From: Microbacterium atlanticum
GTDB taxonomy: Bacteria > Actinomycetota > Actinomycetes > Actinomycetales > Microbacteriaceae
Reading direction: 5' to 3'
Assembly (NCBI RefSeq): GCF_015277815.1
Contig: NZ_CP063813.1
Coordinates: 1,178,001-1,242,000 of the forward strand
DNA: 64,000 nt
Part shown: one piece after another, positions 16,999-21,063 of the stretch
Layout of the letters: each line of letters opens with the position of its first letter
Position numbering within the stretch: the first letter of the stretch is position 1
The notes under the pieces: generated by a model
What the model was told of the DNA's origin: nothing
What the model saw: only the letters and a program-made list of their open reading frames with translations
The model's database searches: none
Program-made: the position numbers and the translations under genes

Positions 16999-18942
16999 TC
17001 ACGCGGCGACGGGTGTGAGAGCCTGCTCGACCAGGCGCTGCAGCGTGGTCATGCCGTCCCGCGACAGGATCGACTCGAGGTGCCCCTGCACCGAGGCGAA
17101 CCCGGGACCGCGCAGCGCGTACACGTCGCCCGACGGGTCGGCGGCGACCTCGGCTTGGCCGACCCGCCGCGTTCCGGCGGGGACCCGCGCGGTGAACGTG
17201 TTGTAGAAGCCGATGGATGCCGGCACCCCGAACACGTCCACCGACTTCTGCAGGCCCTGGTGCGGGGTTTCCAGCGGCGCGAGGCCGATGCCGAGGGAGT
17301 CTGCGAGGATCTGGTGGCTGAGGCACACCGCCAGGAGGGGACGCCCCGCATCCCGCCGCCGCGTCACCACCTCGCGCATCCGGCGCATGCGCGGGCTGGC
17401 GGAATCCCGCGGGTCGCCCGGTCCGGGCCCCGAGATCACCAGCTCGGCGGCGTCGATCTCGTCGTCGGTGACCTCGTGCCACGGGACGATGCGGGCGTCC
17501 AGCCCGAGGTGCCGCAGCTGGTGCGCGAGCATCGTCGTGAAGCGGTCCTCGGCGTCGACGACGAGAGCGTTGCGGCCGGCGAACGGGCCGATCTCGTCGG
17601 AGCCCTGCGGGTTCAGCCAGAACTCGGCGAGCCGGGCGTTGCGCGAGGCCAGCAGCTCTGCGATCGCCGGATCGTCGGCCAGTCGTCGCGGCGCCGGAGC
17701 GGGGGCGTCCTCGTCGATGACGTCGGCGTCGGTCGCGGCCGCGACGGCGGCCTCGGCCGCGGCGTCGCGGGGGACCGCGCCGATGGCACCGAGCACGCCC
17801 GCCGCCTTCCCGTGGGTCTCGCCCACCTCGCCGTACGGGTCGGAGTGCCGCACGAGGGTGGCGCCGACCGGGACGCGCAGGCGGCCGTCCTGCAGATAGG
17901 CGGTGCGTATCAGGATCGGCGCGTCGAGGTCGTGCGTCGCCTCGCCTGCCGTGAGCGTGAGCCGGGGCGTGAAGAGCGCCGCCACGCCGGAGTAGTACCC
18001 GCGGGGGTTCGTCTCGTGGCGCGCGATGACCGTGCAGGCATTCTGCATGGGGGAGCCGGTGACCGTCGGGGCGAACATCGTCTCGCGCAGGATCTCTCGG
18101 GGATCCAGTCTGCTGCGGCCCCGCAGCACGTACTCGGTGTGGGTCAGCCGCGACATCTCCTTCAGATGAGGGCCGGTGATGCGGCCGCCGTCCGAGCAGA
18201 CCGCGCTCATCATCTTGAGCTCCTCGTCGACGACCATGAAAAGCTCCTCGGTCTCCTTGGTGGAGCGCAGGAACTCGGCGAGCGTCTCGGGCGTCGCGCC
18301 GCCCTCCGGGTGGCGGAACGTCCCCGAGATGGGATTCATCGTCACCACGCCGTCGCGAGCACTGACGTGCGCCTCCGGGCTGGCGCCGACGGCGACGTGT
18401 CCGGGTGTGACGACGGCGAAGGTCCAGTACGCGCCCCGCTCGTGCTCGAGGAGGGCACGGAACCACGTCAGCGCGGCCTCGGCGGCATCCGCCGCGACGC
18501 CGGCGGTGAAGTCGCGCCGGATCACGAAGTTCGCGCCCTCGCCGCGACCGATCTCGTCGGAGATCACCCTGCGCACGATGTCGGCGTACTCGTCGTCGGC
18601 GATGTCGAAGCCCGCGCCCTCGAGGGCGACCGGCTCGGCCGGCAGCTGCGCCAGCACCTCGTCGCGCGGGAGGGCGCTGCGTTCGGCGACGACGAGGCAG
18701 CGCAGCGGCGCCCCGTCGTCGTGACACTCGAAGCCGCGCTCGCGGACCTGCCGGAACGGCACCAGCGCCAGCACCTCGCGAGGGGTGCCGGCGCTGTCGG
18801 TCAGCGGGATGTCGGCGAGCAGCTCGACGTCGACGACGTCACCGGTGAGCAGTTCGACGGTGGCGCTGTCCCGTGCGATCAGGGCGAAGGGGGTGCCGCG
18901 CTGGGCGATCTCGCGAAGCGAAGGGTGGGCGGGCCCGGTCAT
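16999..18942 (-). CDS. PhzE-type anthranilate synthase (synthase + glutaminase fusion)
   Basis: 647 residues fusing a chorismate-utilising synthase domain (about 1-400) to a class I glutamine amidotransferase (about 440-645). The synthase half shows MNPISGTFRHPEGG, DEELKMM, HTEYVLRGRS and APTVTGSPMQNAC. This is closer to phenazine PhzE than to classical TrpE (which has a GTRPRG-type block). The amidotransferase has GPGPGDP, the nucleophile Cys in AVCLSHQ near 540 and the His/Glu pair in GHLES near 620. Expected product: anthranilate, or the related aminodeoxyisochorismate, from chorismate and glutamine. No other phenazine gene is nearby. A tryptophan attenuator lies directly upstream, arguing for tryptophan supply. 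The ATG at 18942 follows a GAAAG site. Confidence 0.9.
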   Translation of the reverse strand: MTGPAHPSLREIAQRGTPFALIARDSATVELLTGDVVDVELLADIPLTDSAGTPREVLALVPFRQVRERGFECHDDGAPLRCLVVAERSALPRDEVLAQLPAEPVALEGAGFDIADDEYADIVRRVISDEIGRGEGANFVIRRDFTAGVAADAAEAALTWFRALLEHERGAYWTFAVVTPGHVAVGASPEAHVSARDGVVTMNPISGTFRHPEGGATPETLAEFLRSTKETEELFMVVDEELKMMSAVCSDGGRITGPHLKEMSRLTHTEYVLRGRSRLDPREILRETMFAPTVTGSPMQNACTVIARHETNPRGYYSGVAALFTPRLTLTAGEATHDLDAPILIRTAYLQDGRLRVPVGATLVRHSDPYGEVGETHGKAAGVLGAIGAVPRDAAAEAAVAAATDADVIDEDAPAPAPRRLADDPAIAELLASRNARLAEFWLNPQGSDEIGPFAGRNALVVDAEDRFTTMLAHQLRHLGLDARIVPWHEVTDDEIDAAELVISGPGPGDPRDSASPRMRRMREVVTRRRDAGRPLLAVCLSHQILADSLGIGLAPLETPHQGLQKSVDVFGVPASIGFYNTFTARVPAGTRRVGQAEVAADPSGDVYALRGPGFASVQGHLESILSRDGMTTLQRLVEQALTPVAA

Positions 18943-18987
18943 GGCTGTGGGTCTTTCGTCGTGGGGAGGCAGCCCTTACGAAGAAGA

Positions 18988-19008
18988 AGACCGCCTCGAG
19001 GGCGGTCT
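18988..19008 (-). terminator. Attenuator terminator hairpin (segments 3:4)
   Basis: On the minus strand AGACCGCC, a 5-nt loop CTCGA and GGCGGTCT form a perfect 8-bp stem followed by a pyrimidine tail TCTTCTTCG. It lies 45 nt ahead of the PhzE-type gene and ends transcription unless the antiterminator forms. Confidence 0.8.
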
Positions 19009-19037
19009 GAGTCGCTCAACCCACCGCCTATGCGGTG
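19001..19037 (-). promoter_or_regulatory. Tryptophan attenuator: pause and antiterminator segments
   Basis: Segment 1 (CACCGC, 19037-19032) sits just after the Trp codons and pairs with segment 2 (GCGGTG, 19027-19022). Segment 2 can instead pair as GGCGGT (19028-19023) with ACCGCC (19006-19001), the 5' arm of the terminator. A ribosome stalled on the two Trp codons would cover segment 1, freeing segment 2 to block the terminator. Confidence 0.75.
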
Positions 19038-19063
19038 AGCCACCAGGAGAGGCGAGCGGACAT
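19028..19063 (-). CDS. trpL: Tryptophan leader peptide
   Basis: An 11-residue open frame, MSARLSWWLTA, with tandem Trp codons at positions 7-8 and a TAG stop, placed 85 nt upstream of the PhzE-type anthranilate synthase. It precedes mutually exclusive hairpins, so it is a classic ribosome-stalling leader peptide. The ATG lies exactly 6 nt after a TAGTTT -10 box and has no Shine-Dalgarno site, so it is probably translated from the 5' end of a leaderless transcript. The stop codon lies between hairpin segments 1 and 2. Confidence 0.85.
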   Translation of the reverse strand: MSARLSWWLTA

Positions 19064-19069
19064 GCGCCG

Positions 19070-19075
19070 AAACTA
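19070..19075 (-). promoter_or_regulatory. Leaderless-type -10 box (trp leader)
   Basis: TAGTTT on the minus strand, 6 nt before the leader-peptide ATG at 19063. It drives the attenuator and the PhzE-type gene. Confidence 0.65.
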
Positions 19076-19182
19076 CCACACGCGCGATCGGCCGATCCGT
19101 TCGTCCCGGCCCACGGGCGGGCTGTTTCGCTCCATACTGAGGCCGACCCGTTTCCTCGCATCTCGCCCCGCGGAGGCTTGTC

Positions 19183-21063
19183 TTGACCCGACTTCCGATC
19201 ACCGAGCGCCGGCCCGACCGGTCGGGGACGCCGGAGCGCGACGCGCGCCGGCCGTCGATCGCCGACCGCATCCGCAACATGGGAGAGCAGCGCACCGGAG
19301 CCCTCCTGCTGGTCCTCGCCACCCTCGCGGCGATCGTGTGGGCGAATCTGGGTGCCGCGTCGTACCACGACTTCTGGGAGACCGATCTCACGATCGGATT
19401 CGGTGACATCCAGCTGGAGTTCACGCTGCACGCACTGGTCAACGACGCCCTGATGGCCATCTTCTTCTTCACCGTCGGGCTCGAGGTGCGCCGGGAGTTC
19501 GCGATCGGAGAGCTCACCAGCTGGTCTCGCGCGATGATCCCGGTGGTGGCCGCCGTCGCCGGCCTGGTCGTGCCCGCCGGCCTGTTCCTCGCCATCGCCG
19601 CCGGCTCCGGGCAGGAGCATGCGTGGGGCGTCGTCATCTCGACCGACACCGCCTTCCTGGTGGGTGCGCTCGCCCTCATCGGCCCGCGCGCGTCGGGCCG
19701 CCTGCGCGTGTTCCTCCTCGCGCTGGCGGTCGTGGACGACATCGGGGCCCTCAGCATCATCGCCCTCTTCTACACCGAGAACTTCACTCCGCTTCCGCTG
19801 CTCGTGGCCGCCGCGGGCCTCGCGGGGATCTTCTTCACCCGCTACATCCCGCGCGGGCGCGGGCCCATCTACGCCACGCTGTCGATCATCGTGTGGCTGG
19901 CCTTCCTCGCCTCGGGGGTGCATCCGACGCTCGCGGGCGTCGCCATCGCCCTCCTCATCCCGGTCTACCGGCCGAACCGCCGGGACGTGGAGCAGGCGCT
20001 CGAGCTCGCCCGCATGTTCCGCCAGTCGCCGAACACCGAGTACGCCCGGCAGGCCGCCAACAGCCTGCGCGAGTCCATCTCGATCAACGAGCGCCTGCAG
20101 TCGGCGTACGCGCCCTACGTCGCCTACGTGATCCTGCCGCTGTTCGCCCTGGCCAACGCCGGCGTCGAGATCTCGGGCCCCATCCTCGCCGCGGCCGTGC
20201 AGTCACCCGTCACGTGGGCCGTCGTCGTGGGCCTCGTGGTGGGCAAGTTCGTCGGCGTCTTCGGTGCTGCCGCGACCATGAAGGCCGTCAAGCTCGGGGA
20301 GTTCGGCCTGGGACTGACGCTCGACCGCATCGCCGGCGGCGCGATGCTGTGCGGCATCGGATTCACGATCTCGCTGTTCATCATCGATCTCGCCATCGAT
20401 GACCCCGACGTGCAGAACGAGGCGCGGGTCGGCGTGCTGGCCGCATCCGTCATCGCCTTCGTCCTCGCGGCGATCGTGTTCCGCCTGTCCGATGCCCGCC
20501 GGCCCGACGACGACGGCGGACGCGTGCTGGTGCGACCGGTCGACCCGAAGCGGGACCACATCTACGGCGACGTGGACGCCCCGCTCACGATCGTGGAGTA
20601 CGGCGACTTCCAGTGCCCGTTCTGCCTGAAGGCCTCCGGCTCGATCGAAGAGGTGCGCGCCGAGCTGGGTCCGCGGCTGCGGTACGTGTGGCGGCATGCG
20701 CCGCTGGAGCGCCAGCACCCGAACGCGCTCGCCGCGGCCGAGGCCGCGGAGGCCGCCAACCTGCAGGGCAAGCTGCCGGAGTTCTCACGCAGCCTGTTCG
20801 CCGACCAGGAGCACCAGCTGCCGTCGGACATCATCCGGCGAGCGCGTGAGCTGGGCCTGGACGTCGATCGCTTCGAGGAGGATCTGAGCTCACCGAAGGT
20901 CACCGGCCGCGTGCGGGACGACATGCTCGATGCCGAGGCGATGGACATCACCTCGGTGCCGACCTTCTTCATCAACGGCGTCCGGCACGTCGGCCCGTAC
21001 GACGCGCAGACGCTCATCCGGGCCCTCACCGGCTCCGAGCCGGATCCGACGACGGCCGCGTAG
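19183..21063 (+). CDS. nhaA: NhaA Na+/H+ antiporter fused to a DsbA-like thioredoxin domain
   Basis: 626 residues. The first ~430 are a NhaA sodium/proton antiporter with about 12 membrane segments, the functional Asp pair in VDDIGAL near residue 185 and the late block GIGFTISLFI. A linker leads to a DsbA/thioredoxin-like domain (about 447-620) whose active site is CPFC near residue 478, with a cis-proline-type block TSVPTFFING near 590. NhaA sets sodium and pH homeostasis in the membrane; the appended redox domain should lie at the cytoplasmic or outer face depending on helix count. The TTG start has a CGGAGG site 6 nt upstream. The TAG stop is part of the ispG promoter. This fusion is known in actinobacteria, but its function is unclear. 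Confidence 0.92.
   Translation: MTRLPITERRPDRSGTPERDARRPSIADRIRNMGEQRTGALLLVLATLAAIVWANLGAASYHDFWETDLTIGFGDIQLEFTLHALVNDALMAIFFFTVGLEVRREFAIGELTSWSRAMIPVVAAVAGLVVPAGLFLAIAAGSGQEHAWGVVISTDTAFLVGALALIGPRASGRLRVFLLALAVVDDIGALSIIALFYTENFTPLPLLVAAAGLAGIFFTRYIPRGRGPIYATLSIIVWLAFLASGVHPTLAGVAIALLIPVYRPNRRDVEQALELARMFRQSPNTEYARQAANSLRESISINERLQSAYAPYVAYVILPLFALANAGVEISGPILAAAVQSPVTWAVVVGLVVGKFVGVFGAAATMKAVKLGEFGLGLTLDRIAGGAMLCGIGFTISLFIIDLAIDDPDVQNEARVGVLAASVIAFVLAAIVFRLSDARRPDDDGGRVLVRPVDPKRDHIYGDVDAPLTIVEYGDFQCPFCLKASGSIEEVRAELGPRLRYVWRHAPLERQHPNALAAAEAAEAANLQGKLPEFSRSLFADQEHQLPSDIIRRARELGLDVDRFEEDLSSPKVTGRVRDDMLDAEAMDITSVPTFFINGVRHVGPYDAQTLIRALTGSEPDPTTAA

Follow-up and report, generated by a model that had tools for sequence, protein, structure and literature searches.

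A predicted ribosome-mediated tryptophan attenuator, probably on a leaderless message, ahead of the fused trpEG gene of Microbacterium atlanticum

Introduction

In the trp leader of Escherichia coli (Rfam RF00513), a short reading frame with a Shine-Dalgarno sequence and tandem Trp codons accompanies RNA segments that pair as 1:2, 2:3 and 3:4. Amongst the actinobacteria, trp attenuators have been predicted in Corynebacterium and Streptomyces, according to extracts of Seliverstov 2005 (PMC1262725), which also cite attenuator experiments in C. glutamicum and S. venezuelae; the attenuator alignment in Figure 1 of that work spans the region from the Trp codons to the terminator. In the corresponding excerpts of PMC8079986, the S. 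lividans leader trpL1 (MFAHSTRNWWWTAHPAAH) stands before a monocistronic trpE, is transcribed without a 5' untranslated leader (leaderless transcription) and is accompanied by two hairpins. The ilvB attenuator leader of C. diphtheriae is also reported to be leaderless (PMC5784534). A full-text literature search returned no paper on a tryptophan attenuator or leader peptide in Microbacterium.

Here we describe such an element in a stretch of 64,000 nucleotides of the M. atlanticum genome (hereafter the window). It resembles the Streptomyces trpE/trpEG attenuator (S. venezuelae; S. lividans trpL1) in its Trp-rich leader, two hairpins and monocistronic target (excerpts of PMC8079986), and that of Corynebacterium in placing a Trp-rich leader and a terminator before trp genes (extracts of PMC1262725, PMC5784534 and PMC4046766). 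In Corynebacterium the leader stands before a trp operon whose first gene is trpB1 or trpE, whereas in the window it stands before a single fused gene. The Streptomyces leader, by our reading of locus L131, has 18 codons with three tandem Trp codons (WWW) and segment 2 largely inside the frame; unlike it, the window leader has 11 codons, two of them tandem Trp codons (WW), and a stop codon just before segment 2. The element also differs from the E. coli leader in giving no Rfam match, a search of positions 17000-21000 at E <= 1 having matched no family.

The WWW leader motif was found in 16 of 394 genomes of the class, all belonging to one genus that, judging from the leader, would be Streptomyces. 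Ten of these 16 genomes were fetched, and in all ten the leader, nearly the same as that of the Streptomyces attenuator (for example MFAHSTQNWWWTAHPAAH), precedes a homologue of the window protein with 52-55% identity, as far as the 3-kb locus reaches; in the fused copy of genome G018, residues 16-639 were matched in one frame. The Streptomyces-type and window attenuators therefore share their target gene. An earlier note on this DNA had singled out as unexpected both the PhzE-type fusion as a target and the leaderless leader. Neither surprise survives, as the attenuated Streptomyces gene is apparently the same fused gene and trpL1 is described as leaderless in the excerpts of PMC8079986. The attenuator is of an already known type, and neither its fused target nor its leaderless leader is new.

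Results

Parts of the leader locus

The features of the locus are collected in Table 1. Two short frames of the form ATG..WW..stop occur in the window, both strands considered; the attenuator leader is the only one with TAnnnT 5-8 nt upstream, and a terminator follows it too. In 40 dinucleotide-shuffled windows there was a mean of 0.325 short WW frames, with 0 carrying a -10.

Table 1. Elements of the attenuator and its target gene, in window coordinates
Feature	Coordinates	Strand	Remarks
-10 box TAGTTT	19070..19075	-	extended form TGTGGTAGTTT; 6 nt ahead of leader ATG
Leader ORF MSARLSWWLTA with stop	19028..19063	-	ATG at 19063, stop ends at 19028; ATG TCC GCT CGC CTC TCC TGG TGG CTC ACC GCA TAG
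Tandem Trp codons of leader ORF	19045-19040	-	
P1 5' arm	19054..19061	-	leader nt 3-10, bulge at nt 6; from fold and covariation of the equivalent helix
Segment 1	19032..19041	-	10-bp 1:2 helix in folds
Segment 2	19018..19028	-	19027-19018 pairs with segment 1
P1 3' arm	19011..19017	-	spacer between segments 2 and 3; part also lengthens 2:3
Segment 3, terminator 5' arm	19001..19008	-	AGACCGCC
Segment 4, terminator 3' arm	18988..18995	-	GGCGGTCT
T-rich tail	18978..18987	-	TCTTCTTCGT
Fused anthranilate synthase, read as TrpEG	16999..18942	-	647 aa

The 89-nt leader RNA is predicted to fold with -40.6 kcal/mol (z -3.1), and none of 200 shuffled sequences was equally stable. Its terminator, AGACCGCC-CTCGA-GGCGGTCT, has an 8-bp stem at 19008-18988 followed by the T tail TCTTCTTCGT; no other terminator-like site was listed in 18800-19400 (0.2 expected from shuffling), and the synthase ATG, at 18942, lies 45 nt past the stem. 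In the alternative 2:3 pairing, GGCGGU of segment 2 (19028-19023) pairs with ACCGCC of segment 3. The earlier note had proposed a trp attenuator with these parts, a leader beginning 6 nt after its -10 box and a distance of 45 nt between terminator stem and synthase; the parts and both distances were borne out. It had placed the 1:2 hairpin right after the leader frame, and this needs correcting: segment 1 is contained in the frame, and the 1:2 loop holds the stop codon, whose final G is the start of segment 2.

The sequence evidence argues strongly (with a probability of about 0.93) for a ribosome-mediated trp transcription attenuator that would control trpEG from a leaderless message. From its parts we infer how stalling, termination and the response to tryptophan would proceed. 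At low Trp-tRNA, a ribosome would stall at codons 7-8 and cover segment 1 together with codons 2-6; segment 2 would then pair with segment 3, and RNA polymerase would read into trpEG. With ample Trp-tRNA, a ribosome at the stop codon would cover segment 2, allowing 3:4 to form and transcription to terminate. On a message carrying no ribosome, helix P1 and 1:2 would close together, and 3:4 would form as well.

Promoter and leaderless start

A consensus promoter scan found no sigma-70 site with a -35 near the leader, and the promoter was assigned because an extended -10 is present and conserved. Amongst the best 80 of 562 relatives, TAnnnT stands 6-8 nt before the start in 76/76 WW leaders, and the SD-like motifs tested are absent from all 76; as background, 9 of 1221 ATGs in the window have TAnnnT 5-7 nt upstream. 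Where several start codons were possible the -10 guided the choice, so part of the agreement in spacing was built in; under an outermost-ATG rule the same spacing pattern was seen by eye in most loci. The first transcribed base would thus be expected to be the A of the leader ATG or a direct neighbour of it, and the message is probably leaderless. The kept WW codons, the hairpins and the spacing of -10 and ATG support the proposal of the earlier note that attenuation probably acts on a leaderless message.

Distribution of the leader amongst relatives

From the best 80 of 562 relatives, two loci (L029 and L051) were dropped for having too little upstream sequence. A short WW frame precedes the gene in 76 of the remaining 78; the two without a WW leader are L079 (Phytoactinopolyspora) and L084 (P. 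aeruginosa PA7).

Across the class, the fused gene was found at E <= 1e-80 in 147/394 genomes, and 69 loci from these were inspected with the -10 as part of the leader criterion. A leader was present in 50/69, comprising 29/29 of the closest loci (L099-L127) and 21/40 of L128-L167. Six of the 19 misses are second copies (L128, L130, L132, L133, L135 and L137); the other loci without a leader are L139, L140, L141, L146, L147, L153, L155, L159, L162, L163, L164, L165 and L167, which, once the picked second copies are set apart, makes 13/34 of L128-L167 without a leader by these criteria. L163 has a WW frame 433 nt away, without a -10; the match of L167 is partial, and the upstream sequence of L131 spans only 422 nt. 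Eight of the 13 ordinary misses fall in one family of the class, f34, in which five other loci have the leader, so in the f34 misses the leader may have been lost or may be too divergent for the search. In f34 loci L142, L143, L144, L145 and L166, WW leaders occur with a different terminator core, of the CCAGACC type, which suggests that the attenuator core itself has drifted in this family. The fused-gene matches of genomes G106, G277 and G367 each contain one TGA inside the alignment, reflecting a possible broken copy or sequencing error.

To survey the genus, we used a covariance model built from 43 Microbacterium-type leaders, that of the window included. In the own genome the window site was matched at E 1.9e-22; the next match was the opposite strand of the same site (E 0.0017), and the remaining three lay above 0.1. 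This opposite-strand match (G000:C1:1196941-1197028, +, 21.7 bits) is expected of near-palindromic hairpins, and some relatives behave alike. Matches at E <= 1.2e-6 were obtained in 57 of 59 genomes of the genus, own genome included (56 at E <= 1.3e-11), many of which may coincide with those in the model. The match at 1.2e-6 belongs to G419, whose leader reads VHATMNQWWLA. In G416 the contig starts just after the expected Trp codons, with segments 1-4 and then the gene present, so its element was counted as cut and not as absent; G435, 88% complete, gave a weak match only and no leader. Weak extra matches in G400, G447, G394 and G434 had no short WW leader, two of them resembling plain terminators, and there was no second attenuator amongst these extra matches.

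A helix at the start of the message

In the window fold, leader nt 3-10 pair with nt 47-53 to form helix P1, directly beneath 1:2. P1 joins leader codons 2-5 to the spacer after segment 2 and covaries across clades, its partners being CGCGAAC/GUUCGCG in Microbacterium, CGUCGAA/UUCGACG in Agromyces, ACGUGUGC/GCGCACGU in Plantibacter, UACGCGA/UCGCGUA in Jiangella and UACGCA/UGCGUA in Rhodococcus. When leaders were scored for pairing energy with their own spacers and with permuted ones, 81 non-redundant leaders reached 10.20 vs 8.35 +- 0.24 (0/20000 permutations, z 7.8), and the 62 short leaders gave z 8.1; permuting leaves some shared ancestry in place, so these z values are generous. For three control pairings z was 1.0, -0.7 and 0.7. 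A first test, in which 44 leaders were scored differently, was matched by 1 of 20000 permutations. In alignment A1, the two helices of P1 were formed in 85% and 71% of cells. By the first covariation measure, P1 was absent in L082, L127, L080, L069 and several others.

Two readings of P1 were weighed. In the first, for which the odds are about even, P1 is simply the base of a long 1:2 protector hairpin and does nothing separate at the start of the message, as its continuity with 1:2 in the window fold would suggest. Two observations speak against it. The 5' arm of P1 starts at nt 4-6 in 92/106 short leaders, and in folding of 104 leaders the mean unpaired fraction of nt 4-12 fell from 0.54 before the spacer to 0.22 after it (0.50 with a shuffled spacer), a drop of >0.3 being seen in 58/104 leaders vs 5/104 with a shuffled spacer. 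That in these folds the spacer closes nt 4-12 once transcribed gave rise to the idea of a lock that shuts behind a pioneer ribosome. We put this forward tentatively, as a possibility that falls short of an even chance: leaderless trp attenuators of actinobacteria may possess a self-closing 5' lock that admits one pioneer ribosome per message and would thereby respond to the availability of initiating ribosomes in addition to Trp-tRNA. The 5' end would be open to a ribosome before the spacer is made and closed afterwards, and transcription would end by default if no ribosome arrived in time.

P1 is possibly undescribed so far. In the literature on leaderless attenuation and leader peptides that was searched, which lay outside subscription papers, no description of it was found, the closest being PMC8079986. 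The alignment panel of PMC1262725 starts at the Trp codons, so the P1 5' arm falls outside it.

Folding and covariation of the switch

The 1:2 helix covaries by permutation (z 5.6), and so does 3:4 (z 4.4, 0/20000 permutations, 11 representatives) in a test that compared own with permuted pairing after segment 3 had been picked by its CCGCC-type motif alone. An earlier 3:4 value of z 19.1 was set aside as circular, the arms having been chosen for complementarity. Beyond its fixed core, 2:3 showed no covariation by pairing energy (z -1.0); a cruder test gave 227 of 20000. In alignment A1, 98.1% of cells pair in the 2:3 core and 91.3% in the named structure as a whole, the latter vs 31-52% in slid versions. 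Within the 43 Microbacterium-type leaders of A1, the covariation score was reached by 34/500 shuffles and is thus barely above them; the core is nearly invariant there, with 3/18 named pairs changing on both sides (1/16 pairs in the structure proposed by RNAalifold itself). Longest runs of at least 6 bp occurred in 75% of leaders for 2:3 (vs 19% shuffled) and in 86% for 1:2 (vs 55% shuffled).

Ribosome positions were modelled with a masking footprint assumed to extend 15-16 nt downstream, counted from the first base in the P site, a treatment applicable to 119/127 leaders. A ribosome placed on the Trp codons leaves segment 3 paired to segment 2 (P>0.5) in 101/119 leaders, and moving it to the stop codon weakens folding up to segment 3 by >3 kcal/mol in 119/119. 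Equilibrium terminator probabilities hardly differ between the stall and stop footprints. In the window, 2:3 and 3:4 are about equal in energy (-13.3 vs -13.9), and 3:4 is the stabler in 85/119 leaders. Since 3:4 is stabler in most leaders, antitermination must be kinetic, with 2:3 forming first, which is the ordinary logic of trp attenuation in E. coli as well.

A leader peptide could instead control the translation of trpEG or Rho-dependent termination, the 3:4 hairpin not being the main switch. The T tail of the terminator is broken by a C, and extracts of PMC1262725 describe leader peptides of mycobacterial cys operons without conserved terminator hairpins, both of which would suit such control. 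However, a terminator-like hairpin follows 76/77 leaders (by permissive criteria, with a few of the chosen stems implausible), 3:4 covaries as described above, and the synthase start lies beyond 3:4 and outside the hairpins; we consider control by translation or Rho very improbable and retain transcription attenuation through 3:4.

The fused gene and its product

The fused synthase carries a chorismate-binding domain (residues 117-379) and a glutamine amidotransferase domain (460-637) in one chain. Its nearest solved relative by sequence is 3r74, which we take to be PhzE. For none of the 25 NCBIfam families listed, out of 40, does it pass the cut-off; for TrpE-clade3 (TIGR01815) it reaches 121.8 of 739.15 bits, below the curated cut-off. 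One neighbour, divergent from the attenuator at 19183-21063 (+), encodes an Na+/H+ antiporter of the NhaA type joined to a domain resembling DsbA/thioredoxin.

The own genome forms one contig of 3.71 Mb. In it, the model trpE_most gave three matches with none above its cut-off, and no canonical TrpE was found. The matches are a PabB, which is above its own cut-off (336.2 vs 328.4 bits), a protein encoded at 2.97 Mb that is taken for a putative isochorismate synthase, and the fused gene. A separate TrpG/PabA-type amidotransferase is encoded at 17.9 kb, and trpC was also found. Since no other candidate for an anthranilate synthase was found in the genome, trpEG is the most fitting name for the fused gene, and genome content points to anthranilate, not ADIC, as its product. 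A search of the genome for PhzA/B was empty; its controls were empty too, and it carries no weight. The label 'PhzE-type' in the earlier note is correct by sequence and misleading for function, as no canonical TrpE was found in the genome and, in six genomes with two fused copies, a single copy carries the leader.

More than one fused-gene match was present in 18 genomes, of which we took the six with a second match over both domains (G089, G112, G142, G153, G317 and G340). In 6/6, just one of the two copies bears the leader (in G340, the copy at L093). Some ORFs were scanned around the second copies of G112, G142, G153 and G340, revealing a class II DAHP synthase in 3/4 and an isochorismatase in 1/4. 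These observations fit a division in which the attenuated copy would serve Trp synthesis and the other copy a PhzE-like duty.

Synthesis of ADIC by the fused enzyme for a phenazine-like compound, with the leader linking a secondary pathway to tryptophan, is highly unlikely: the relationship to 3r74 and the family cut-offs would accord with this, but the genome with trpC has no other anthranilate synthase candidate found, the leader is confined to one copy in the two-copy genomes, and the fused TrpEG of S. venezuelae is published as an anthranilate synthase and not an ADIC synthase (title of Ashenafi 2008, as cited in PMC3111181).

Discussion

The bacterium appears to gauge tryptophan via the stalling of a ribosome on an 11-codon message before its sole apparent anthranilate synthase gene. 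One attenuator design precedes fused trpEG in several actinobacterial families, and every instance found here has the leaderless spacing. Should P1 be a lock, the folding of leaderless leaders would by itself set the timing of ribosome loading relative to RNA polymerase. Finally, the presence or absence of a WW leader is a possible genomic mark separating the Trp-making copy of the fused gene from PhzE-like copies of secondary pathways.
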